Shown here one piece after another: positions 394-46,454 of a stretch of 64,000 bases of DNA. Numbering within the stretch: the first letter of the stretch is position 1; each line of letters begins with the position of its first letter. The translations under genes and the position numbers were made by a program. Source of the stretch: Loktanella sp. IMCC34160 (GTDB lineage: Bacteria; Pseudomonadota; Alphaproteobacteria; Rhodobacterales; Rhodobacteraceae); NCBI RefSeq assembly GCF_004145845.1, contig NZ_SELP01000002.1, positions 1 through 64,000 of the forward strand. The letters run 5' to 3'. Under the pieces are notes generated by a model. The model searched no databases, was not told the DNA's origin, and saw nothing but the letters and a program-made list of their open reading frames with translations.

Positions 394-1800
394 CTATCTG
401 CGCCGCCCCTTTCTTTTCTTTTCCAGCCAGAACGGCGGTACATCGCCTGCCATCATGCAGCCGTAGGGGTCAATGTAGTCGACGATTTCCGCCAGTCCGA
501 ACTTTCCGATCTGACGAACCACATTGTCGGCGTTCTTGTAGGACGACGGCAATTCTGACGCGTCAATCCCGCCCGCCGGAAAGCGGACATCTAGGCCCTT
601 TGTCTCCGCCTCCAGCGCCTGTTGGGCTGTTGTCTCGCCCAGACGCCGCCTGTGTTCGGTCCGGGAAAAGTTCCGGCCGGCCCCATGCGGCGAGAAGCCA
701 AGCGAATGCCCCGCGTCCTTCCCCCGCACCACCAGCACAGGCTGTGCCATGTTGAGCGGAATCAGGGTCAGGCCCGTTGCGTCCGCGGCATAGTCGTCCC
801 AGCCCGGTGTGGCCCCCTTGCCGTGGTAGAACAGATCGTCCCGTTTGAAGACGAAGTTGTGTTCGTTCCAGAACCGGTCCTTCGGCTGGGCACCCGAGAA
901 CTCGACCGTGGCCTGATGGATGGCGTTGTGGTTTGCCTTGGTCCACTTGCGGATCAGCTGCAACGCGTCCCAATAGGCCTGCCCATCCTCGGTGTCGGCA
1001 GGGATCCAGGCGTTCTGCTTCAACGTCTCGGGTGACAGCCGCTTGCGGTATCTCTCGGCGACCTCCATCCCCAGTTTGTAAAGCACCGCGCCCGGCCCGC
1101 GCGATCCATGGTGCGTGACCATGGCCGTGCGTCCCGTGTTGCGGGACCGGCCCACGAACAGGAAGTGGTTGCCATCGCCCTGCGTGCCGAGGTGTTCGAC
1201 CGCCATCCGCAAGATCTTGGGGTTGCTCAGAAACCGGTTCGCGCGGAAGTCGTCCATCAGCGCCTGCGACATGGTGAACCGCTGACCGTTGCGCCGCCCG
1301 CCGGGGCCGAAGTGCGTGACCTTTTCGGCTGCGTCCAAGACCGTCTTGGGGTCGATCTCGCCCAGATCCGTCATCATGACGGAACAGCAAATGTCGGCCG
1401 AGTGCATCCCCGGGTGAATCGCATTGCGCGTGGCAACGACGCCGCCAACGGGGATCGTGCCCTCGGGTCCTGCGGGGCAGGCATCGGGCATCACCGCGGC
1501 CGAGACCACCGTCGGGGTCCGCACCACGATCTCCATTGTCTTGCGCACATCCTGAAGGTTCTTGACCTCGTCAGCGTCGTCGCTGGCTTCGATGTTGAAA
1601 TGCAACGGCACGTCCGCCGCATGTTGCAGCGTCAGCGCGGGCGGCGGCTTCATGGCATCAAGCTTGGCGCGGATCTGGTCGTGACCGATGCCCGCGGCCT
1701 CTGCGGCCTGCGCGATTTCAAGAAGGCGGCCAAAATCCCGGCCGGGAATATGGCCCCACGCTTTCAGTGTGTCACTCGTGATTTCAATCTGTGTCATCAT
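394..1800 (-). CDS. rtcB: RtcB family RNA-splicing ligase
   Basis: 468 aa. RtcB joins RNA 2',3'-cyclic phosphate or 3'-phosphate ends to 5'-OH ends using GTP and Mn2+, healing tRNAs cut by endonucleases in the cytoplasm. Family hallmarks visible: the metal-binding segment around residues 105-141 (ending SADICCSV, so Asp136 and Cys138/139), LGTQGDGNH at 204-212, HHGSRG at 230-235, NEHN at 312-315, and the guanylylated-histidine motif HGAGRNFSR from residue 372. Length matches the family. It is the last gene of a minus-strand unit rsr - Y-like RNAs - tRNA - rtcB, with 106 bp of structured DNA between the tRNA and its start. The start has two consecutive ATG codons and only a weak purine tract upstream. 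No RtcA cyclase is adjacent. Confidence 0.95.
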   Translation of the reverse strand: MMTQIEITSDTLKAWGHIPGRDFGRLLEIAQAAEAAGIGHDQIRAKLDAMKPPPALTLQHAADVPLHFNIEASDDADEVKNLQDVRKTMEIVVRTPTVVSAAVMPDACPAGPEGTIPVGGVVATRNAIHPGMHSADICCSVMMTDLGEIDPKTVLDAAEKVTHFGPGGRRNGQRFTMSQALMDDFRANRFLSNPKILRMAVEHLGTQGDGNHFLFVGRSRNTGRTAMVTHHGSRGPGAVLYKLGMEVAERYRKRLSPETLKQNAWIPADTEDGQAYWDALQLIRKWTKANHNAIHQATVEFSGAQPKDRFWNEHNFVFKRDDLFYHGKGATPGWDDYAADATGLTLIPLNMAQPVLVVRGKDAGHSLGFSPHGAGRNFSRTEHRRRLGETTAQQALEAETKGLDVRFPAGGIDASELPSSYKNADNVVRQIGKFGLAEIVDYIDPYGCMMAGDVPPFWLEKKRKGRRR

Positions 1801-1906: not shown

Positions 1907-1982
1907 TGGCTGGAAGGGCAGGGATCGAACCTGCGACCTGCGGTACCAAAAACCGTTGCTCTGCCAGCTGAGCTACCTTCCA
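1907..1982 (-). tRNA. tRNA-Gln(UUG)-like gene with encoded CCA, inside the rsr-rtcB unit
   Basis: A complete cloverleaf reads off the minus strand. Acceptor TGGAAGG/CCTTCCA (1982-1976 with 1917-1911), D-arm GCTC-AGCTGGCA-GAGC, anticodon loop TTTTGGT (1951-1945, anticodon TTG at 1949-1947), T-arm GCAGG-TTCGATC-CCTGC, discriminator G and CCA at 1910-1907. U1-A72, G2-C71, G3-C70 and G73 agree with tRNA-Gln identity elements. One flaw is an A27-C43 mismatch at the top of the anticodon stem. It could be a working minor tRNA-Gln, or a decoy/substrate RNA tied to the repair operon. I cannot see whether the genome has another tRNA-Gln(UUG). Confidence 0.8.
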
Positions 1983-2029: not shown

Positions 2030-2091
2030 GGAGGACAAGGGCTTGGCGAGACGCATACATTTGGAAGATGTAGTCCCGCCGGCATTCCTCC
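2030..2091 (-). ncRNA. Y-RNA-like unit D (minimal, hairpin-capped)
   Basis: 62 nt. Outer helix GGAGGA/TCCTCC (2091-2086 with 2035-2030), internal loop ATGCC opposite AAGCCCTTG (2044-2036), inner helix GGCGGGA/TCTCGCC (2080-2074 with 2051-2045, one G-U). It then has the conserved CTACA and a small hairpin TACAT-CTTCCAA-ATGTA (2072-2056). The two-helix stem is the same as in units A-C, with different but still complementary bases. The tRNA-like module is replaced by the short hairpin. By analogy with known Y RNAs the stem should bind the Rsr ring; that is inference. Confidence 0.7.
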
Positions 2092-2105
2092 GGTTCGTGT
2101 TGGGT

Positions 2106-2220
2106 CTGGCAACAAGGGTTTGGCGAAACGAACTTGCTCGACCAACTGAGCTGCCCTGAGAAGTGAAATCAGGGACGGGAATCGAACCCGCGACACTGTA
2201 GTTCCGCCGGCATTTGCCAG
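2106..2220 (-). ncRNA. Y-RNA-like unit C with a circularly permuted tRNA core
   Basis: 115 nt. Stem: outer helix CTGGCAA/TTGCCAG (2220-2214 with 2112-2106), internal loop ATGCC opposite AAACCCTTG, inner helix GGCGGAA/TTTCGCC (2208-2202 with 2128-2122). Enclosed, in order: CTACA, a T-arm GCGGG-TTCGATT-CCCGT (2191-2175), acceptor strand CCCTGA (2174-2169), a 9-nt capping loop, acceptor strand TCAGGG (2159-2154), then a perfect D-arm GCTC-AGTTGGTC-GAGC (2151-2136). The tRNA 3' half thus precedes the 5' half. This is the arrangement expected of YrlA-type bacterial Y RNAs, which are known to mimic tRNA. It is the clearest of the four units. Confidence 0.85.
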
Positions 2221-2231
2221 AGTCTTGGGGT

Positions 2232-2377
2232 TTGGCGACAAGGGTGAAGAAACAGTTGGGGTCCCGCCCCCGCCCATTTGCATGGGCAGTTTGCCGTCTG
2301 GGCGCCTGCAAGGAGAGGAGTCGAACCGTCTCGGATGATCCCATGGGGAGCAATGTAGTTCCTTCGGCATTCGCCAA
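2232..2377 (-). ncRNA. Y-RNA-like unit B (degenerate tRNA-like module)
   Basis: 146 nt. Outer helix TTGGCGA/TCGCCAA (2377-2371 with 2238-2232), internal loop ATGCC opposite ACCCTTG, inner helix GAAGGAA/TTTCTTC (2365-2359 with 2252-2246), then CTACA. Inside are a T-arm-like hairpin with a 7-nt TTCGACT loop and one bulged C (2332-2313), and a perfect hairpin GCCCAT-GCAA-ATGGGC (2287-2272) in place of a normal D-arm. The inner helix differs from units A, C and D at several base pairs but every change is compensated, strong evidence for a selected RNA structure. Confidence 0.75.
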
Positions 2378-2390
2378 GTTTTTCTGCGAT

Positions 2391-2518
2391 CCCGGCGACA
2401 AGTTTTGGTGAAACATGTTGTCTAAGCTACACGGCGTGAACCGTGGCGGGGATCGAACCCGCGACCTCCGATCCTGCGACCGGCGCTCTACCAGGGAGTT
2501 CCACCAGCATCCGCCGGG
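2391..2518 (-). ncRNA. Y-RNA-like unit A (mostly linear tRNA-like module)
   Basis: 128 nt, first RNA after rsr. Outer helix CCCGGCGG/TCGCCGGG (2518-2511 with 2398-2391), internal loop ATGCT opposite AAAACTTG, inner helix GGTGGAA/TTTCACC (2505-2499 with 2413-2407). Enclosed are a D-arm-like CTC-CCTGGTA-GAG with the GG pair, an anticodon-arm-like hairpin CCGGTC/GATCGG (one G-U pair), a perfect T-arm GCGGG-TTCGATC-CCCGC (2462-2446), and a capped acceptor-like hairpin CACGG-TTCACG-CCGTG (2445-2430). It lies about 60 bp after the rsr stop codon, so co-transcription with rsr is likely. Confidence 0.8.
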
Positions 2519-2578: not shown

Positions 2579-4134
2579 CAGATGGCGATCTTTTCGATCT
2601 CGCCGACCCAGTGATCCGGACCCATCCTGCCGCCTGCATAGGCGGCGATCTGGTCAAAGACCGCGTCCGAGAACCCGCCGACGTTCAACACGTCGTCGCG
2701 TTCTTTCGCCTGTGCCGTCCCGTAGGGGGCGATATCGATGCAGACCAGCCTGGCCCCCGGGTTCCGCTGCTTCAGCTTTTCCCAGGCGTGCATCATCGCC
2801 GTCCCGGACCCGCCATGGGCATTGTGTGCCCAGGACTGGTTGTCCGAAACCATGACCACCAGATCGACCGGCTTGCGCCGTGCCAGCAGCCATTCCAACG
2901 GTGCCGCGCAGTTGGTCCCGCCGCCCCACTTTTCCGCCAAACGCCCGGCGTTTGTCAGGATCGTGTCGCGGGGTTCCAGCCGCATTTCCCGGACCTCCAC
3001 CTCGAACGGCAGGACCAGTGCGGACGGGTTGCGCCGAAGCACGGCCGCCGCGACCAGACCGGCCACATCCACGAACCGCGTCGCGGTGGTGGCCCCCTTG
3101 CGGTAGCCGGTCACCGGACCAGACATGGAGCCCGAGACATCCGGACAGACGACAACCCGACCCGGAAGTTCCGGCACATTGCGTACCGCAAGCTCCATCG
3201 CGTCGTGCAGCGCATCCCTGATCTCTTCAGGCATCTCCGCCGACATGGCCTGATAGGCCGTCATCAGCTGGTACGGGAAGACCCGCGCCTTGGCGATCAG
3301 TGCCGGATCCCGCAGACGCGCCGCGATCATCCGGCGCATCTCGGGCAGGGCCAGAACCCCGTGCCGCAGAAACGTGTTCAGGTTCATGCGGGTCATCTGC
3401 CAGGATGCGTTTTCAGCGATCTCTGCCCATTGTTTCGTGGACAAAGGCAACTGCGTCAGCATCTGGAACGGAACATCGGGCACAGGGCCCGTGCCCGCCT
3501 CTTTGAACCGCAGGAAATCCTGCACGGCGTCCGGCAGCAACGCGACATCACACGGCTTGCCGATGATCCAGGCAAACAGCGCCTCACGCGCCGGGTTGCC
3601 CGGTTTCGGGTGCACCAACTTGACCACATCCGCCAGCGACGGATCGTTGCCCACGGCGGCCTGCAAAAGCGCCTTGTCGGACGCTTCGATCAGCCAGTTT
3701 GCAACCATCCGCTTGGGTGCCGAACCGAGCGATTTCCGCCCGGTCTGGCCCGACCGCATGATCTGCACGAAGGTCCGAAGCATCTTGCCGTTATCGACAA
3801 CCTGCCCAAAGACCTGCCGGAACAGAACCGGATCCCGGCCCGCCAGCACCGCCAACAGCAGCGCGGGCATGTCCTTCATGTTACCGGACTTGCGCGTGTA
3901 GACGGCGGTCTTTGCCAGAAAGGTCGGGTCGACCGCGTTTGCGGCTGCCAGCACCTTCGCAAGCTCCTGCAGCGGGTCCTGATAGAATGTTGCGCCAAAG
4001 GTCCCGGTCATCGACAGCTGGGCCAAGGCATGGGCATCGGAATAGGCGTAGGCCGGCGCTTGCGCCAGATTGGTCGTGTCCGCCTTGGACAAGAACCGGC
4101 CTTTGATCGATGCAAACACGGATTTGTTTGCCAT
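2578..4134 (-). CDS. rsr: Rsr: Ro60-like TROVE/vWA ring protein
   Basis: 518 aa from the ATG at 4134, which has an AAGGA site 9 nt upstream; an in-frame ATG at 4185 lacks this and would add 17 residues. Ro60 orthologues form a HEAT-repeat ring that binds misfolded ncRNAs in its cavity and Y RNAs on its outside. The N-terminal TROVE region spans about residues 10-320. The C-terminal von Willebrand A domain carries an intact MIDAS: DVSGS at 332-336, Thr407 in GGGTNC, Asp431. It is the first gene of the rsr - Y-like RNAs - tRNA - rtcB unit and diverges from rtcR. The four RNAs just downstream are the natural candidates for its partners. Confidence 0.93.
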   Translation of the reverse strand: MANKSVFASIKGRFLSKADTTNLAQAPAYAYSDAHALAQLSMTGTFGATFYQDPLQELAKVLAAANAVDPTFLAKTAVYTRKSGNMKDMPALLLAVLAGRDPVLFRQVFGQVVDNGKMLRTFVQIMRSGQTGRKSLGSAPKRMVANWLIEASDKALLQAAVGNDPSLADVVKLVHPKPGNPAREALFAWIIGKPCDVALLPDAVQDFLRFKEAGTGPVPDVPFQMLTQLPLSTKQWAEIAENASWQMTRMNLNTFLRHGVLALPEMRRMIAARLRDPALIAKARVFPYQLMTAYQAMSAEMPEEIRDALHDAMELAVRNVPELPGRVVVCPDVSGSMSGPVTGYRKGATTATRFVDVAGLVAAAVLRRNPSALVLPFEVEVREMRLEPRDTILTNAGRLAEKWGGGTNCAAPLEWLLARRKPVDLVVMVSDNQSWAHNAHGGSGTAMMHAWEKLKQRNPGARLVCIDIAPYGTAQAKERDDVLNVGGFSDAVFDQIAAYAGGRMGPDHWVGEIEKIAI

Positions 4135-4310: not shown

Positions 4311-5885
4311 ATGAAAAAGAGCGTCGTCATAGGGTTTCTGGGCACGAATCTGGATGCAGGAAAGCGCCGTCGCTGGCGGCCTTCTGTTCAGATCAATGAC
4401 CACCCCGACTTTCCGATTGATCGGCTCGAACTCATCCATGGCCGTCGGTGGAGCGGTCTGGCGAACAAGATCAAGGCCGAGGTAGAGCGCAGAAACCCCG
4501 AAACCGAAGTGCTCTTGCATCAGATGGAAATCGCGGACCCCTGGGATTTCGAGGAAATGTACGGCGCGATGTTCGATTTTGCCCGCGATTACGGGTTCGA
4601 CGATGATCGCGAAGACTACTTCGTGCATCTGACGACCGGCACCCATGTCGCACAGATTTGCTGGTTCCTGCTGACCGAGGCACGGCATATCCCCGCGAAA
4701 CTGGTTCAGACCGGCCCGCCCCGGGGGGATGACGACGGTCCGGGGTCCTTGCAGATCGTTGATTTGGACCTGTCCAAGTACAACGCGCTGCAGCAGCGCT
4801 TTGACCTCATTACCAAGGAATACAACACTCTTCTCAAGGGGGGGATCGACACCCGGAACGCCGCCTTCAACGCCATGATCGACCGGATGGAAGTGGTCAC
4901 GTCCAATTCTGACGCGCCGCTACTTCTGGTGGGGCCGACGGGGTCGGGGAAATCCGACCTTGCCGGTCGGTTGTACGAGTTGAAACTGCAGCGCCGCCGC
5001 ATCAAGGGTCGGCTGGTGCATGTGAATTGCTCGACCCTGAAGGGGGAACGGGCCATGTCCACGCTGTTCGGCCACAGGCGGCAGGCGATCCCGGGCGCGG
5101 CGGCGGACCGGCGCGGTCTTCTGCAGGAGGCGGACGGCGGGGTGCTGTTCCTCGATGAGATCGACGAACTTGGCCTCGATGAGCAGGCGATGATCCTGCA
5201 TGCGATCGAGACCGGGAAATACTTTCCCCTTGGGTCGGATTATGAGGTCACGAGCCGGTTTCATCTCATCGCCGGGGCCAGCCGAAACCTTGCCGCTCTC
5301 GTGGCCGAAAACCGGTTTCGCGCGGATCTCTATGCGAGGCTCAACCTTTGGACCTTTGTCTTGCCGGCCCTGAGGGATCGGCCGGAGGATATTGCGCCAA
5401 ACATTGCAAGCGAGATGGCCCAGATGGAAAAGAAGCTGGGGCTGCGGGTTACGTTCAATGCCGATGCCCACGCGGCCTATCTCGCCTTTGCGACAGATCC
5501 CGGGACCCAGTGGCTTGGAAACTTCCGGGATCTCGGGGCCTCGATACAGCGGCTTTGCACACTGGCCCCACGCGGACGGATCACCCAGGCCATGGTCGCC
5601 GAAGAAATCGCCATGCTTCAATCCACCTGGCAGGAATCGTCGCGCGACGAGGATATGCAATTGCTGACCGATCTGATCGGGCCGGAGGCGCTTGGCATTG
5701 ACGAATTCGACAGGGTGCAGCTTGCAGCGGTCGTTCGGATTTGTCGCCAATCCTCCAGCCTCAGCGCCGCGGGACGGCGCCTTTTTGCAGCGTCACGGAC
5801 GATGAAGACCAGCCGAAACGATGCCGACCGGCTCAAGAAGTACCTTGCACGGTTCGGGCTGGATTGGTCGGCCTGCCAGCAATAA
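4311..5885 (+). CDS. rtcR: RtcR: CARF-AAA+ activator of the RNA repair operon, with altered GAFTGA loop
   Basis: 524 aa. RtcR proteins sense cyclic-phosphate-ended tRNA fragments through an N-terminal CARF domain and switch on rsr/rtcB. Visible here: CARF region about 1-180 with the VHLTTGTHVAQ signature (105-115), AAA+ domain with Walker A GPTGSGKS (208-215), Walker B GGVLFLDEID (276-285) and arginine-finger segment RFRADLYARL (335-344). The C-terminal region, about 470-524, ends in the RtcR-type DNA-binding segment. The sigma-54 contact loop following LFGH, normally GAFTGA, is QAIPGA (258-263). The ATPase core thus looks active while the sigma-54 contact is lost. It diverges from rsr. Confidence 0.92.
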   Translation: MKKSVVIGFLGTNLDAGKRRRWRPSVQINDHPDFPIDRLELIHGRRWSGLANKIKAEVERRNPETEVLLHQMEIADPWDFEEMYGAMFDFARDYGFDDDREDYFVHLTTGTHVAQICWFLLTEARHIPAKLVQTGPPRGDDDGPGSLQIVDLDLSKYNALQQRFDLITKEYNTLLKGGIDTRNAAFNAMIDRMEVVTSNSDAPLLLVGPTGSGKSDLAGRLYELKLQRRRIKGRLVHVNCSTLKGERAMSTLFGHRRQAIPGAAADRRGLLQEADGGVLFLDEIDELGLDEQAMILHAIETGKYFPLGSDYEVTSRFHLIAGASRNLAALVAENRFRADLYARLNLWTFVLPALRDRPEDIAPNIASEMAQMEKKLGLRVTFNADAHAAYLAFATDPGTQWLGNFRDLGASIQRLCTLAPRGRITQAMVAEEIAMLQSTWQESSRDEDMQLLTDLIGPEALGIDEFDRVQLAAVVRICRQSSSLSAAGRRLFAASRTMKTSRNDADRLKKYLARFGLDWSACQQ

Positions 5886-6414: not shown

Positions 6415-7761
6415 ATGGTTGGTTTGGTGAAATCCCGCATACATGACGGGATCGCCGTGATTGCCTTGGACAATCCGCCGGTCAATGCGCTTGGCGCTGG
6501 CCTGCGACGGGATCTGGCGGGCATTCTGGATCACCTGCGCGGTCGTTCGGGCGTTCTGGGCGCGGTCATCGGGGCACCGGGGCGGTCGTTTTCGGCCGGG
6601 CTTGACCTTCAGGATCTGGATGCCCCCATCACCCCGCCGTCCCTGCGTCAAATATGCGACCAGATCGAGGGGCTGCCCTTTCCAACCGTTGCGGTCCTGA
6701 CCGGAAGCACCCTTGGCGCGGGTCTGGAACTTGCACTGTCCTGCACCTGGCGTCTGTCCGACCCCGAGGCGGTGATCGGCCTTCCGGATGTGACCCTTGG
6801 CCTTGTGCCGGGCGCGGGCGGAACCCAACGCCTGCCACGGATCGTGGGGGCGGCGCAGGCGCTGAACATGCTGATGAGCGGGCAATCCATTAAACCCGGC
6901 GCGGCACAGAAGGCCGGGTTGGTGGACGGGATCGTGCGGGGGGAACCCCTGTCCGGCGGGGTACATTTCCTGAAGGCCAAGCAGGCATCGGGCGCGCCTG
7001 TGGTGGCCAGCCGGGACCGGCGCGACGGCTTTGCCGACCCGGATGCCTATTTGCGGCTGGTCTCGGAACGCAAGACCGCGCTGCGACAGTCCCGCTATCT
7101 TGCGCCGCGCCGCATTGCCGACTGTGTCGAGGCGGCGATCCTCTTGCCATTTGACGCCGGAATGGAGTTCGAGGCGGTCGCGCATGAGGAATGCCGGTCG
7201 GGGCCGCAATCCCATGCCCTGCGCCACATGTTCCGGGCCGAGCGCCGGATCGACCCGCGCTTTCTGTCGCGCGCAGACGGCAAGGGATGGGCGCTGCATC
7301 CGGAGGGCGAGGCGGTGGCCGAACGGCTGCGCCGGGCCTTGCGGGCGGCGGTGGACCATTTGGCAAGTCTCGGCGTGACGCCCGAGGCGATTGACCGCGC
7401 TTTGCTGGATCTGGGGTTCACCCAGGTGCCGTTCGGGCATCGGGTTGCGGGTGGCGCGTCGTCACGGGGGCATGACGCGGTGCAGCGGCGGGTCGTTGCC
7501 GCGCTGATGGCCGAAGGGTGCCGGATGGTCGAGGCGGGCGTTGTCGCCCGCGCGTCAGACATCGACGCCATCGCCGTCCACGGCATGTCCTACCCGCGCT
7601 GGCGCGGCGGGCCGATGCGCACTTCGGTGCAGTTCGGGTTGCTGGGATTGAAACGGGACATGGCCCATTGGGCCAAGGAAAGCCGCATCTGGGAGGCGCC
7701 CGCGCTGGTCGGTGAGGCCGTCAAATACGCCGCCGGGTTCGAGGCGCTGCCGACCGTCTAA
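6415..7761 (+). CDS. FadB-like enoyl-CoA hydratase / 3HCDH C-terminal protein lacking the Rossmann domain
   Basis: 448 aa. The N-terminal ~190 residues are a crotonase (enoyl-CoA hydratase/isomerase) domain: oxyanion-hole segment SFSAGLDL (58-65), GAGLELAL (101-108) with catalytic Glu105, and PGAGGTQRLPR (132-142). The second catalytic acid, usually Glu, is Asp125. The C-terminal ~150 residues resemble the C-terminal helical domain of 3-hydroxyacyl-CoA dehydrogenase (GHRVAGGASSRGHDAVQRR, YPRWRGGP). FadB/FadJ proteins are ~700 aa because an NAD-binding Rossmann domain lies between; no GxGxxG motif exists here. The protein can therefore at best hydrate or isomerise enoyl-CoAs. It converges with the small membrane-protein gene downstream. 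Confidence 0.8.
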   Translation: MVGLVKSRIHDGIAVIALDNPPVNALGAGLRRDLAGILDHLRGRSGVLGAVIGAPGRSFSAGLDLQDLDAPITPPSLRQICDQIEGLPFPTVAVLTGSTLGAGLELALSCTWRLSDPEAVIGLPDVTLGLVPGAGGTQRLPRIVGAAQALNMLMSGQSIKPGAAQKAGLVDGIVRGEPLSGGVHFLKAKQASGAPVVASRDRRDGFADPDAYLRLVSERKTALRQSRYLAPRRIADCVEAAILLPFDAGMEFEAVAHEECRSGPQSHALRHMFRAERRIDPRFLSRADGKGWALHPEGEAVAERLRRALRAAVDHLASLGVTPEAIDRALLDLGFTQVPFGHRVAGGASSRGHDAVQRRVVAALMAEGCRMVEAGVVARASDIDAIAVHGMSYPRWRGGPMRTSVQFGLLGLKRDMAHWAKESRIWEAPALVGEAVKYAAGFEALPTV

Positions 7762-8459: not shown

Positions 8460-9338
8460 TCAGGGCGCGATGAAATTGACCCCCGGCATCCGGGCGATTT
8501 CGTGGACGTCGTCGTCGTAAAGCTCGGTCAGCTGGTCCATCACCTCTTCGGTCCAGCCGGGCAGGTCGTATTCCTCTTCCACCTCGTCATCCTTGGCGAA
8601 TTTGTCGAGGAAGGCCGAGATGATCCGCCGTTTCTGCAATTCGGACTTTGGCGGATGGCCCTTGATGTAGGCCAGAAACCGGCTCATGCCTTCGTCGGTC
8701 ATGATCGACTGGATCAGGTCGAACCCACCCTTGATCGGGGTCAGCGGGTCGATGCCCGACAATTCGCGCAGCAGCTGCGCCCAGATCAGCGGCGTGTCTT
8801 CGTTGCACCAGACCGTGACCGACGCGCGCGGGACAGCGGCCCGGATCCGGGCGATCAGGCTGGACCAACGAATGTCATCCAACGCGATCCCCCCCAGAAA
8901 CTGGGCAAAGTCGTTGCGGTTGTCGCAGTCCCGAAAGACCGCCGGAACAAAGGTGGCCGGATTGCGGATGCCGATGAACAATTCCAGATCGTCCTGCGGA
9001 AACAGGTCGGACAGGCCGGTGACCTTTTGTTCGGCAAGACCGTAGAACTGCCCCTCTTCAAACACCCGGTGCGGAAAGCAGATGAACCGGTCGTGGCTCA
9101 TCACCACCCGGTTGGCCTGTTCGTCGTCCAGGATCGCATCCAACAGGATATCACGCGTGTCGGGCGCGGGCTGTGCCCCATCAAGGTTCTGAATCGTTTC
9201 GCGGATCAGGCGGCGGTATTTCCCCGGCCCGGGAACCTTGATTCCCTGATCGGTGAAGGACTGCGCGTTCTTCAAAAGGGATTTGAGGAGCCGCTCCTCA
9301 TCGGTGCAATTAGCCCCGATATGGTAGACGATCTGCAT
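8460..9338 (-). CDS. Conserved hypothetical protein, possibly sulfotransferase-like
   Basis: 292 aa from the ATG at 9338 (MQIVYHIGANCTDEERLL); an upstream frame extension is unlikely. The N-terminal strand-loop-helix IVYHIGANCTDEERLLKSL recalls the start of sulfotransferase-fold proteins (HIGxxKTGTT), but the lysine/threonine phosphate-binding residues are missing. The rest (IGIRNPATFVPAVFRDC, VTVWCNEDTPLIWAQLL) fits the same fold family loosely. Acidic C-terminus. Divergent from the ABC permease gene. Function unknown; the fold assignment is tentative. Confidence 0.6.
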   Translation of the reverse strand: MQIVYHIGANCTDEERLLKSLLKNAQSFTDQGIKVPGPGKYRRLIRETIQNLDGAQPAPDTRDILLDAILDDEQANRVVMSHDRFICFPHRVFEEGQFYGLAEQKVTGLSDLFPQDDLELFIGIRNPATFVPAVFRDCDNRNDFAQFLGGIALDDIRWSSLIARIRAAVPRASVTVWCNEDTPLIWAQLLRELSGIDPLTPIKGGFDLIQSIMTDEGMSRFLAYIKGHPPKSELQKRRIISAFLDKFAKDDEVEEEYDLPGWTEEVMDQLTELYDDDVHEIARMPGVNFIAP

Positions 9339-9433
9339 TTCCCGACCTGCCCGTCGTTCGTGTTCCGGTTTTCGTTTTGGGCAGTATAACGTCATTTCTG
9401 GACAGTGAAACCGGTTTCCGATAACCGAGCCAT

Positions 9434-11083
9434 ATGTCCGAGCAAACTGGTCAGATATTCACGCCGCGCCGGTTCCGCACCGATCCCTGGTCGGTCGGGG
9501 CGATTGTGATCGCCGTTCTTGTCCTGCTGCCGATCGTGGCGGTTCTTTGGTTCGCCGCGACGCCGACCGACAATATCTGGCCGCACCTGATGCGCACGAC
9601 CCTGCCACGCTATCTGGGCAATACGGCGATCCTGATGTTCGGGGTTGGGCTGCTTACGGCGGCCATCGGCACCGGGGCGGCCTGGCTGGTGACGATGTAC
9701 CGCTTTCCCGGAGTGGGCTGGATTCAATGGGCGCTTTTGCTTCCGTTGGCGGTTCCAGCCTATGTCGGGGCCTTTGCCCTGGTGGATTTCCTTGAATATG
9801 CGGGGCCGGTGCAAACCGCGCTTCGGACGGCCTTCGGTTGGGGCAATGCGCAGGACTACTGGTTCCCCGCGATCCGGACCCGGACGGCGGCGATCATCGT
9901 GCTTGCCGCCTCGCTGTACCCCTACGTCTACATCCTTGCCCGCGCGGCGTTCCGCGAACAAAGCGGCGCCGGGTTCGAGGTCGCCCGCGCGTTGGGTGTC
10001 GGTCCCCTTGGGCGGCTTCTTCGTGTCGGCCTGCCGCTGGCGCGCCCGGCCATCGCCGCCGGTGTGGCCGTGGTGATGATGGAAACGGTCAATGACTTCG
10101 GCACGGTCGATTATTTCGCGGTCCAGACGCTGACGACGGGCATTTTCACCGTCTGGCTTCAGGGCGGCAACCTTGGCGGTGCGGCGCAACTGGCGACGGT
10201 CGTGCTTGGGCTGGTGGTCATTCTGGTGACGCTGGAAAAGATCAGCCGCCGCAAAAGCAGGGTCTACGGGTCGGCGCGCGGGATGCGCCCGGTCACGGCC
10301 ACGCCCTTGCCGGGGCTGGCGGGCTGGGCGGCGACGCTGGCCTGCCTGCTGCCTTTCACGGCGGGGTTCCTGTTGCCGGTGGGTGTGCTTCTGAGCCATG
10401 CGTTCGACGCCTCGGACTGGGCCGCGCCGGGGCTGGTGCGGGCGCTGTGGCACACGGTTGCGGTGGGCGGCATTGCCGCCTTTCTGACGGTGCTTGGCGG
10501 GGTCTTCATGGTCTATGGGGTCCGGCTGTCGGGCTATCGCCTGCCGCGGCTTCTGATGCCTGTCACGGCGATCGGCTATGCCGCGCCGGGGGCGGTTCTG
10601 GGCTTGGGCATTCTGGTGCCGCTGGCGGCCTTGGACAACCGGGTGGCCGATGCGATCTGGGGCGCGACGGGCTGGGACCCCGGCCTGATCCTGACCGGCA
10701 GCGCGGCGGCGCTGGTCGTCGCCTATGTGGTGCGGTTCTTTGCGATTGCGCAGGGGGCGGCGGATGCGGCGCTGGGCCGGGTGTCACCGTCCCTGCCAAT
10801 GGCCGCGCGGTCGCTGGGGCAAACAGCGGGGGGCGCCTTGCGCCGGGTCTACGTGCCGCTGATCCGTGCCTCGATCGGGTCGACCCTGCTTCTGGTCTTC
10901 GTGGATTGCGTCAAGGAACTGCCCGCGACCCTGCTGCTGCGCCCCTTCAACTACGACACGCTGGCGACGCGGGTGCATGAAAAGGCCAGCCTTGAAAATA
11001 TCACCGAGGCGTCGACCGCCGCGCTGATGATCGTGGCGGTGGGGCTGATCGCGGTCGGTCTTTTGGCGCGCGCGAACCGCTGA
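9434..11083 (+). CDS. Iron(III)-type ABC transporter permease (FbpB-like)
   Basis: 549 aa, two fused binding-protein-dependent permease domains with about 12 membrane spans. Each half carries an EAA-type loop: around 185-205 (EVARALGVGPLGRLLRVGLPLARPAI) and around 455-480 (AARSLGQTAGGALRRVYVPLIRASI). This architecture is typical of FbpB/SfuB/HitB ferric-iron importers, where one long polypeptide replaces two permease subunits. The ATPase and periplasmic binding protein are not adjacent and must be encoded elsewhere. Substrate is inferred from family only. Confidence 0.85.
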   Translation: MSEQTGQIFTPRRFRTDPWSVGAIVIAVLVLLPIVAVLWFAATPTDNIWPHLMRTTLPRYLGNTAILMFGVGLLTAAIGTGAAWLVTMYRFPGVGWIQWALLLPLAVPAYVGAFALVDFLEYAGPVQTALRTAFGWGNAQDYWFPAIRTRTAAIIVLAASLYPYVYILARAAFREQSGAGFEVARALGVGPLGRLLRVGLPLARPAIAAGVAVVMMETVNDFGTVDYFAVQTLTTGIFTVWLQGGNLGGAAQLATVVLGLVVILVTLEKISRRKSRVYGSARGMRPVTATPLPGLAGWAATLACLLPFTAGFLLPVGVLLSHAFDASDWAAPGLVRALWHTVAVGGIAAFLTVLGGVFMVYGVRLSGYRLPRLLMPVTAIGYAAPGAVLGLGILVPLAALDNRVADAIWGATGWDPGLILTGSAAALVVAYVVRFFAIAQGAADAALGRVSPSLPMAARSLGQTAGGALRRVYVPLIRASIGSTLLLVFVDCVKELPATLLLRPFNYDTLATRVHEKASLENITEASTAALMIVAVGLIAVGLLARANR

Positions 11084-44882: not shown

Positions 44883-46454
44883 TTAGCCCGGTAGGTGAAT
44901 GCGGAAACGTTCGCGGATCGCCGCGTCGGTGGCCGGGTCGAAGCGGGCCGCGGCCCGTTCGGACAGGATCCGCTCTTTCCGCGCGGTGGCCTTTTCGATC
45001 AGGTCGGGTTTGCCCTTTTCCGCCCATTCCTTGGGTGAGGTTCGGTCGCCAAGTGTCGGATATACGTGATCCTTTTGCATCCGGCTGAGCGTTGCGTCGG
45101 TCCCAAGATAATGCCCGGTTCCGCCGAGGCAGACCTCGCGCATCTGTTCCAGCGCAAGGGTGGTGTCGTCCACCTCGATCCCGCGCACGCAGCGCAGCGC
45201 CTGCCCGATCAGGTCGTCCCCGAGGATCAGGCTTTCGTGGCAGAACCCGAGGAGAGAGGCATGCATCCCTGCCGCCTCGTAGACCATGTTCAGACCGGCC
45301 AGACCGGCCATCACGTTGGAACACATCTGTTCCCAGCCCGCCTGCATGTCCGGCAGTTTGCTGTCGGCGATCCCGGCGGCGGCCCCGCCGGGCAGGTCGT
45401 AGAATTTGTGCATCTGGGCGCAGCCTGCGGTCAGCAGGGCCTGTTCCCCGGACCCGCCGGTCATCGCCCCGGTGCGCAGGTCCAGCCCGAAGGGCCATGT
45501 GCCGAAGATCGCCGGGTGTCCGGGCTTGATCGCGTTCACATAGACGACCCCCGCAAGACATTCGGCCACGGCCTGCACGATCGCACCTGCCACGGTCGAG
45601 GGCGCGGTGGCCCCGGCCATGCCCGCGGACAGAAGCAGCACCGGCATACCGCCCGCGATGCATTCCTCCATCACCTTGCAGCTTTCGGTGGCGAATTTCA
45701 TCGGCGGCACGACGAAGCAGTTGGAGTTCGACACGAAGGGCCGGGCGCGCCATTCGGCCTCTCCCCCGGCGATCATGTGCAACATTTCCATCGCGTCGCC
45801 GACATAGTCGGGATCGGTGAAGGAGACGCCCACATGTTTCGTGGTTCCAGCACAGCTGGCATAGACCGAGTTGAGGTCCATTTCCCGGTTGTCGGCGATG
45901 TCCCGGCACACCATGGGGCGTTGCAGGAAGTGGATGTTGTCCAGCTGGTCGACGATCCGGGCGGCGTCGTGCAGGTCCTGCACTGTGCTGTCGCGGTAGT
46001 TTTTCCCGGCCACGTCAACCATATGCACCGCGGCCCCGGCGGTGCCGTAGTGCACATTGGCGCCAGCAAGGTGCAGGTCACGGGCCGGGTCGCGCCCGTG
46101 CAGGGTGATCCCGCGGGCGGCCTTGGCCAGCATGTCTTCGACCAGCGCGCGGGGAATGCGGATGCGCCCGTCATCGCCAAGGATCGCGCCTGCGCCGGTC
46201 AGGATCTCGACCCCGCTGGGCGGCGCGTCGGCCAGACCGATCTGTTCCAGCGCCTGAAGCGCGGTTTCGTGAATTCGGGCCACCTGCGCATCGGTCAGGG
46301 GCTTGTACTGGCCGCCCGGCATACCGGGCCGGATCGGGCGCATATCATCGGACAGGGGGGCGGCGCGGGCGGCCTTGCGGGCGGCGCGGCCACCGGAGCG
46401 GCTGCCCCGGGCGCTGGTGTTGGACGGGGTCGGGGTTTCGATTTCAATCGACAT
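44883..46454 (-). CDS. MttB-family trimethylamine methyltransferase-like protein (non-pyrrolysine)
   Basis: 523 aa. Full-length MttB-superfamily barrel read without an internal amber codon, so it belongs to the non-pyrrolysine branch. Some members of this branch demethylate glycine betaine or other quaternary amines and transfer the methyl group to a corrinoid protein. Landmarks: HYGTAGAAVHMVD, RPFVSNSNCFVVPPMKFA, NAIKPGHPAIFGTWPFGLDLRTGAMTGG. The first ~35 residues are an Arg/Ala/Ser-rich tail. No corrinoid protein is adjacent. Substrate not deducible. Confidence 0.88.
   Translation of the reverse strand: MSIEIETPTPSNTSARGSRSGGRAARKAARAAPLSDDMRPIRPGMPGGQYKPLTDAQVARIHETALQALEQIGLADAPPSGVEILTGAGAILGDDGRIRIPRALVEDMLAKAARGITLHGRDPARDLHLAGANVHYGTAGAAVHMVDVAGKNYRDSTVQDLHDAARIVDQLDNIHFLQRPMVCRDIADNREMDLNSVYASCAGTTKHVGVSFTDPDYVGDAMEMLHMIAGGEAEWRARPFVSNSNCFVVPPMKFATESCKVMEECIAGGMPVLLLSAGMAGATAPSTVAGAIVQAVAECLAGVVYVNAIKPGHPAIFGTWPFGLDLRTGAMTGGSGEQALLTAGCAQMHKFYDLPGGAAAGIADSKLPDMQAGWEQMCSNVMAGLAGLNMVYEAAGMHASLLGFCHESLILGDDLIGQALRCVRGIEVDDTTLALEQMREVCLGGTGHYLGTDATLSRMQKDHVYPTLGDRTSPKEWAEKGKPDLIEKATARKERILSERAAARFDPATDAAIRERFRIHLPG

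Follow-up and report, generated by a model that had tools for sequence, protein, structure and literature searches.

The Salmonella rsr-yrlBA-rtcBA operon, which is controlled by RtcR (PMC7790460), is a close described counterpart of the element studied here, an array of four Y RNA genes on the minus strand between rsr, the gene of a Ro60-like protein, and the RNA ligase gene rtcB of Loktanella sp. IMCC34160. The array lies within the first 64,000 nucleotides (nt) of contig NZ_SELP01000002.1, a stretch referred to as a whole as the window. In the parts of the published accounts that are drawn upon throughout, RtcR is activated by 5′ tRNA halves with a cyclic phosphate, arising from anticodon-loop cleavage (PMC7790460), and Rsr and Y RNA act together with PNPase, as in the Deinococcus Rsr-Y RNA-PNPase machine (PMC8394870, PMC7790460). 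The Y RNA YrlA has D, T and acceptor arms and serves as a substrate of DusA and TruB (PMC8394870), and its tRNA-like domain has been proposed by the authors as a possible competitive inhibitor of a nuclease (PMC7790460).

The window shares with the Salmonella operon a divergent rtcR followed by rsr, Y RNAs and rtcB in the same order (PMC7790460), and differs from it in the number of Y RNAs (four), in an additional tRNA-Gln gene and in its RtcB, which is only 23-32% identical to the RtcBs of other phyla. The locus is accordingly predicted to be an RtcR-type RNA-repair operon with Ro60, of the kind described for Salmonella. Its units resemble YrlA (RF02553; the Salmonella and Deinococcus type) in the docking double stem, the AUGC/UUG internal loop, the CUA element and the site beside rsr, and the third unit, Y3, is a member by score; in contrast, Y1 adds an anticodon arm and is permuted with its opening in the D loop, the fold of Y2 is a different one and Y4 consists of an anticodon-type hairpin alone. 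The last of these is of the same size as YrlB (RF02565) and, like it, bears a single apical hairpin on its docking stem, but reaches only 21.2 bits against a cut-off of 97 and has a 7-nt tRNA-Gly(UCC) loop where the YrlB consensus has a 6-nt apical loop.

Two further systems are comparable in their use of tRNA genes. In Anabaena, a tRNA reserve (the trn array) is co-regulated with rtcB, both being repressed by TrcR, which resembles the combination of reserve tRNA genes and RNA ligase in the window, although rtcB lies apart from the 26 tRNA genes there and Ro60 is absent from the main text of that report (PMC10272220). Phage tRNAs likewise counter anticodon nucleases, as does the T5 tRNA-Lys against PARIS, and the spare tRNA is in both cases a possible answer to tRNA cleavage; however, the T5 tRNA escapes via changes in its anticodon stem-loop (PMC11455837), whereas the operonic tRNA-Gln of the window keeps the housekeeping anticodon arm. 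The open-licence literature, in the parts covered, contains no Y RNA whose anticodon arm is that of a named isoacceptor, no permutation of a whole tRNA in the D loop and no spare tRNA genes in such operons; the main bacterial Y RNA papers lie outside it, so that some of these features may already have been published. The array, as a set of Y RNAs in an RNA-repair operon, belongs to a known kind, and what appears new is the display of tRNA and anticodon parts by its units.

Four units on a common docking stem

A preliminary description of the array had placed four minus-strand units between rsr and rtcB, and a scan of this gap for the pairing scheme (outer helix, ATGC, inner helix and, after the insert, TTG and the outer helix again) finds exactly these four, each with 13 of 13 pairs. 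Y1 (2391-2518), Y2 (2232-2377), Y3 (2106-2220) and Y4 (2030-2091), all on the minus strand, are separated by spacers of 13, 11 and 14 nt. The common closing scheme of the preliminary description is also seen: the AUGC/UUG internal loop stands between the outer and inner helices in all four, the inner-helix G-U pair occupies an identical position in each, and CTACA is found in Y2 to Y4, with CTCCC in Y1. A chance origin of the four units is ruled out both by shuffling the gap (2000 times; mean 0.0035 units, maximum 1) and by the background of the scan, in which the reverse complement of the sequences used (788,215 nt) yielded 15 matches with 12 or more pairs. Units below 12 of 13 pairs were excluded from the scan counts, so that the unit numbers given here are lower bounds.

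The YrlA model RF02553, which is independent of the pairing scan, aligns to all four units over model positions 1-114. The scores are 72.1 bits for Y3, 43.3 for Y1, 27.9 for Y4 and 22.3 for Y2, with E-values in the 821-nt stretch of 1.7e-16, 3.5e-8, 9.9e-4 and 0.04, respectively; Y3 alone exceeds the gathering cut-off of 69, and Y4 stays below that of YrlB, as noted above. When the whole genome is searched, Y2 and Y4 fail an E-value of 0.001, ordinary neighbouring tRNA genes score 29.0 and 34.5 bits, and the extra matches at 675312-675430 of contig C9 and 356412-356507 of contig C10 were rejected as located on ordinary tRNA pairs. Since Y2 and Y4 score no better than tandem tRNA genes, the weight for these two falls on the pairing scan and on their orthologues. 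In six relatives, cmscan at E-values up to 1 listed 24 of 41 scanned units as YrlA, 7 of them above the cut-off, and left 17 unlisted.

The closing double stem forms in the minimum free energy (MFE) folds of all four isolated units, with folding z-scores of -2.4 for Y1, -1.2 for Y2, -2.2 for Y3 and -3.9 for Y4, so that the stability of Y2 is not unusual. Covariation, which the preliminary description had claimed from the four paralogues, is thin in these alone and gains its substance from relatives. Double changes occur in 11 of the 37 consensus pairs of Y2's class (13 sequences), 7 of them outside the closing helices, several of these seven with up to 4 of 13 cells broken. In Y1's class (5 sequences) 6 of 37 pairs show double changes, all in the anticodon and acceptor stems, and in class e, which is absent from the window, 8 of 37 pairs do so (10 sequences), four of these being acceptor-stem pairs. 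Because the classes were initially assembled with a scan that demanded pairing of the closing helices, the weight of the covariation lies on the inner stems. The possibility of a single real Y RNA with three degenerate companions is ruled out, as the Y1 and Y2 types recur as orthologues with compensated stems and the Y4 type also recurs in relatives.

In sequence, every unit retains the docking double stem of YrlA, with its outer helix, its AUGC/CUUG internal loop, its inner helix and usually CUACA, and bears a changeable tRNA part on it; the earlier picture of a shared stem with differing inserts holds across all four. The core of Y1 is predicted to be a tRNA with four arms and a circular permutation that opens its D loop. 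The consensus fold of its class (5 orthologues) contains D, anticodon, T and acceptor stems, the anticodon arm lying at about 2468-2483, with a short, sealed loop, and the T arm at about 2446-2462; at the DNA level, Y1 also matches the operonic tRNA-Gln weakly (76%, E 0.0055). Y2, which has 13 orthologues, combines a T-arm-like hairpin with a G+C-rich fold of its own, and Y3 is a classical YrlA in which a T arm, an acceptor-like stem and a D arm follow each other without an anticodon arm. The tRNA-like domain made up of T, acceptor-like and D arms is thus present in Y3 and Y1, reduced to the T-arm-like hairpin in Y2 and lacking in Y4. Y4, a short Y RNA of YrlB-like size, ends in a single hairpin, UACAU-CUUCCAA-AUGUA (2056-2072 in the MFE fold), whose 7-nt loop (2061-2067) is identical to the anticodon loop of a genomic tRNA-Gly(UCC) of the family.

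Permuted tRNAs and exchanged anticodon loops

The units were followed into 32 Rhodobacteraceae operons, namely the window, 14 from GTDB contigs and 17 from further genomes of the family, after rows L103, L104 and L108 had been dropped as duplicates of L012, L013 and L015. The operon of L016 ends at a contig end, and 2 of the 22 other rsr-positive family genomes (those behind L100 and L101) are outside the operon set. The operons hold 2-8 units each (median 5, total 160), with at least four in 27 of the 32, and 18 Pseudomonas operons hold 3-5 each, so that at least two units are present in every operon of both sets. The number four, which had been regarded as remarkable in the preliminary description, is therefore not unusual; the set in the window appears instead as a reduced version of those in L007, L011 and L017, which carry eight units each. 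Among 33 loci of other phyla the number ranges from 0 to 6, and 21 have at least two. A 2014 abstract by Chen reportedly speaks of ‘at least one Y RNA in each species’, which implies several per species. As observed by eye, modules appear to switch places between frames, and in L007 a long hairpin at about 6500-6630, between two Y units, includes a stretch like a T arm and is similar to the inside of Y2's class, but has no Y docking frame.

First, many of the cores are predicted to be tRNAs whose two ends have been joined and which have been opened at another point to sit on the Rsr stem. Every core of at least 60 nt (109 units) was doubled and submitted to ARAGORN with 99 end trims. A tRNA was called in at least one trim for 64 of the 109, compared with none of the single copies and none of the 109 in each of three shuffled sets trimmed alike. 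Of the 109, 58 are called in at least 10 trims, 54 in at least 25 and 44 in at least 50; a unit called in at least 25 trims is present in 29 of the 32 operons, and part of the calls have irregular anticodon loops. In the window, the doubled core of Y1 is called in 46 of 99 trims, mostly with an irregular anticodon loop, and ARAGORN makes no call for the doubled core of Y3 or, in 99 trims, for the circularised core of Y2, whose class keeps a T arm within a different fold. Two plans of permutation can be distinguished. In Y1's class the opening lies in the D loop and all of the D, anticodon, T and acceptor stems are retained, and in class e the Y stem enters between the D arm and the anticodon stem, with the CCA end continuing into the 5′ acceptor strand. 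Adjacent units in tandem amount to a natural version of this doubling, and the Rfam tRNA model (cut-off 29) spans such a junction in L017 (35.3 bits, E 9.8e-4), in L011 (31.3 bits, E 0.012) and, with a score below the cut-off, in L010 (25.6 bits, E 0.46).

Next, a hairpin was sought behind the inner helix at the CUACA element, within the first part of the core, which excludes T loops, and its loop was compared with 41 anticodon loops from 149 ARAGORN calls (some genes repeated) on stretches of four family genomes. Repeated units were kept in these counts. The 160 units contain 89 hairpins with a 7-nt loop, of which 50 have U33, 45 have U33 together with R37 and 21 carry the exact loop of a real tRNA; shuffles give an expectation of 14.3, 7.0 and 0.14, respectively, with at most 2 exact loops in 300 rounds, and permuting the letters within loops gives 0.5 exact loops (maximum 4 in 2000). 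As the consensus CUNNNAA would by itself often match real loops, the columns were permuted as a control: 37 of the 45 U33/R37 loops match a real tRNA at positions 33-37, compared with 18.0 expected, and 24 of the 31 distinct loops do so, compared with 13.6, and neither value was reached in the permutations (5000 for the 45 loops). The view that these loops are merely a stable U-turn hairpin is thereby ruled out. Exact loops are found in 16 of the 32 operons and matches at 33-37 in 25, and the 37 matches include Arg(ACG) and Asn (5 each), Gly(UCC) and Asp (4 each), His, Gln and Ser(UGA) (3 each) and eight rarer ones.

Finally, in class e the anticodon has been exchanged between lineages and the body retained. 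Its 13 orthologous units carry the loops CTACGAA, TTACGAA, TTGTGGA, TTTTGGA, TTCATAA and TTCTTAA, which are of the Arg(ACG), His, Gln, Met and Lys(CUU) types, the last one (TTCTTAA) being outside the reference set. Among the 131 columns, variability is highest at position 34 (1.92 bits) and fifth highest at position 35; U33 and A38 are invariant and the flanks nearly constant. The changes within the loop are confined to 32, 34-36 and 37, both flanks and most of the body remaining constant, and position 37 tracks the anticodon as in genuine tRNAs, with G beside GTG and TTG and A beside ACG and CAT. Some of the units are identical (L005, L006 and L014; L007 and L009), and since several of the sources are closely related, the independent swaps are fewer than 13.

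Similar loops occur at a greater distance, where identical units were counted once. The loci of other phyla have 82 units with 45 hairpins, of which 17 have U33/R37 (4.1 expected) and 4 are exact (0.06 expected) relative to the alphaproteobacterial reference loops. In a set of 50 viral contig pieces with an rsr relative, 93 distinct units are found on 30 pieces, 85 of them with the TACA element; 19 pieces have at least two units and the maximum is 11. Of the 53 viral hairpins 22 have U33/R37 (5.2 expected) and 7 have exact anticodon loops (0.12 expected, maximum 3 in 300). Units and tRNA genes occur together on 14 of the 50 pieces; on the viral piece L270, 35 ARAGORN tRNA calls are interleaved with 8 units, and L244 has 4 calls and 11 units.

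Neighbouring genes and spare tRNAs of the operon

The order on the minus strand is rsr, Y1, Y2, Y3, Y4, tRNA-Gln(UUG) and rtcB, with rtcR pointing the opposite way. The rsr gene (2581-4134, minus strand; 518 amino acids) matches the Pfam families vWA_Ro60 (2.3e-15) and TROVE (2e-8), and the best solved-structure match of its product is 2nvo, ‘Ro sixty-related protein, RSR’ (4.5e-23). The rtcB gene (394-1800, minus strand) matches RtcB (PF01139, 1.1e-36), and rtcR (4311-5885, plus strand), which is divergent from rsr, encodes a sigma54 activator with an RtcR domain (PF06956, 3.9e-72; PF00158, 2.2e-38). These assignments uphold the placement of the Y RNAs beside rsr in an RNA-repair operon. The three genes, whose Pfam matches lie above the cut-offs, form one locus, and they are also found together in most of the relatives examined; the Y units lie directly downstream of rsr in the window and likewise in relatives. 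There is no space for an rtcA gene between rsr and rtcB, and no search for it was made elsewhere. One site resembling a -24/-12 sigma54 promoter lies 54 nt upstream of rsr in the window, and the same pattern is found in none of 30 relatives. As 23 of 394 sampled genomes of the family, including that of the window, have rsr, the operon is patchy.

The tRNA-Gln(UUG) gene (1907-1982, minus strand), which forms a full cloverleaf and is encoded with its CCA (61.7 bits with RF00005, and called by ARAGORN), is a second copy, a housekeeping gene being located elsewhere in the genome (contig C17, 162920-162991); the two have the same anticodon arm and differ in the body (58 of 78 aligned columns identical). 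This gene, the divergent rtcR and the anticodon parts of Y1 and Y4 go beyond the preliminary description. Among the 32 Rhodobacteraceae operons, 24 have ARAGORN tRNA genes among their units, for Asn(GUU), Gln(UUG), Pro(UGG or CGG) or Lys(UUU). The operonic tRNA-Asn genes of two relatives are identical to each other at 70 of 75 positions and to the housekeeping tRNA-Asn at 61 of 79 and 63 of 78; being closer to each other than to the housekeeping gene, they seem to travel with the operon. The operonic Pro genes and the operonic Gln gene of L007 differ from the housekeeping ones in the anticodon loop. A Y RNA of Asn type is present in 1 of 16 operons with a tRNA-Asn gene and in 4 of 16 others (P = 0.33), or in 7 of 16 when doubled-core calls are included (P = 0.037), a comparison that is post hoc and is not used here. 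A tRNA-Asn called by ARAGORN at 3808-3891, inside rsr, is taken as a false call because Rfam has no match at that place.

Several other features of these loci were observed. The RtcB of the type in the window shares only 23-32% identity with its counterparts in Pseudomonas, planctomycete and acidobacterial loci, the value for Rsr and RtcR being about 46-57%, so that the ligase seems to have been exchanged in these operons. In L007 (Octadecabacter algicola) a single frame at 8469-10532 of the same operon joins an RNA 2′-phosphotransferase (Tpt1/KptA, Pfam 4e-44) to RtcB (1.6e-35), by which a second repair enzyme would apparently be fused to the ligase. A frame resembling a calcineurin-like phosphoesterase (Pfam 5.1e-4, slightly below the cut-off) lies between rsr and the Y units at 6104-6577 of L017. 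Just past the rsr stop codon of the window a G+C-rich stem-loop is located at 2549-2578, and a short Y unit stands at the corresponding place in L007, L009 and L013. Far from the operon, at 45272-45370 on the minus strand, the window matches the Rfam family PYLIS_3, the pyrrolysine insertion element of mttB (43.8 bits, cut-off 38).

Possible roles of the displayed tRNA parts

A possible course of events may be outlined for such an operon. Anticodon nucleases or other damage would cut tRNAs, and the tRNA halves would switch the operon on via RtcR; RtcB would rejoin the cut tRNAs, the operonic tRNA genes (Gln in the window; Asn, Pro, Lys and Gln in relatives) would replace lost isoacceptors, and the Y RNAs on the Rsr ring would keep the tRNA-cutting enzymes busy or draw them away. 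Which enzyme is engaged would in this scheme depend on the anticodon on display, and this would explain why the anticodon changes between lineages. That the Y RNAs are tRNA or anticodon decoys docked on Rsr in a tRNA-damage operon is a tentative proposal, to which somewhat less than an even chance is given. Held with slightly more reserve is the evolutionary extension of it, in which the arrays might form an evolving and exchangeable anticodon-display panel, made of permuted tRNAs and bare stem-loops on the Rsr ring, whose triplets are exchanged from one lineage to another, the selection coming from the tRNA-cutting toxins and the phage or host nucleases that each lineage meets.

In favour of the decoy proposal stand the gene content of the operon, the permuted tRNA cores, the loops that match particular tRNAs, the exchange of the anticodon in class e, the tRNA genes in 24 of the 32 Rhodobacteraceae gaps, the viral arrays and the published accounts of RtcR activation and of YrlA as a possible nuclease inhibitor (PMC7790460). 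A number of observations weigh against it. No tRNA is called for 45 of the 109 long cores, and a match to a tRNA loop at 33-37 is found in only 37 of the 160 units, leaving 123 without one. Y2's class and Y3 have no anticodon loop, that of Y1 is sealed, and RNAalifold shuts the class-e loop with two further pairs, which leaves a triloop. The most stable hairpin of the 41 short units has a loop of 7 nt in 23 cases, 8 nt in eight, 9 nt in four and 5 or 6 nt in six. In Pseudomonas, 59 distinct units have 28 hairpins, 13 of them with U33/R37 (2.6 expected) and 1 exact (0.07 expected), the reference loops being alphaproteobacterial; the 18 Pseudomonas gaps contain no tRNA gene, and the spare tRNA genes are thus not general. 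The operonic Asn and Lys genes and the Gln gene of the window keep the housekeeping anticodon loop and so are not obviously resistant to cleavage. Furthermore, in the part of the Salmonella study considered, YrlA was not cleaved by an SOS-linked nuclease and fragments were unseen (PMC7790460), which leaves the role of a sacrificial substrate unsupported there and that of an inhibitor as the one that remains.

The absence of tRNA calls for the 45 long cores, together with the existence of classical T-acceptor-D units without an anticodon arm, Y3 of the window among them, would also suit a different function, in which the Rsr ring is covered or opened by the Y RNAs, or tethered by them to PNPase or other enzymes, with a different partner or substrate for each insert and the tRNA likeness serving only folding, modification enzymes or partner binding. 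Such a role has a precedent in the known action of Rsr and Y RNA with PNPase (PMC8394870, PMC7790460), and the preliminary description had likewise viewed the inserts as adaptors or gates for the ring. It stays one reading of the array, somewhat less likely than the decoy proposal in our estimate; it predicts neither loops that match particular tRNAs beyond the consensus nor a constant body with a changing anticodon, and the inserts, with their permuted tRNAs and tRNA-specific loops, point more to tRNA and anticodon mimicry.

Less probable again is an origin of the loops as functionless traces, left where Y RNAs repeatedly arise from operonic tRNA genes by permutation and gene conversion. The patchy operon, the tRNA genes beside the units, the modules that by eye swap between frames and the loops of 5, 6, 8 or 9 nt are all consistent with it; decay, however, would not preserve the combinations of real tRNA loops, and class e varies at 32, 34-36 and 37 while U33, A38, the flanks and most of the body hold. 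The most doubtful alternative is that anticodon hairpins let Rsr ribonucleoproteins bind the codon in an empty A site, or titrate enzymes that modify anticodon loops, such as the one that acts on G34 of UGU loops. It would agree with the exact anticodon loops, down to their U33 and R37, with the GUN anticodons that make up 12 of the 37 matches (Asn 5, Asp 4, His 3) and with YrlA being a substrate of DusA and TruB (PMC8394870), but a permuted tRNA with the Rsr stem on its anticodon side would seem bulky for the A site.

Should the Y RNAs instead act as decoys that display tRNA and anticodon parts, the swap of the anticodon would provide a handle on the role of bacterial Y RNAs and on the place of Rsr/Ro60 in RNA-repair operons. 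Rsr, the Y RNAs, RtcB, RtcR and the spare tRNA genes would then constitute one tRNA-defence unit of bacteria and viral contigs.

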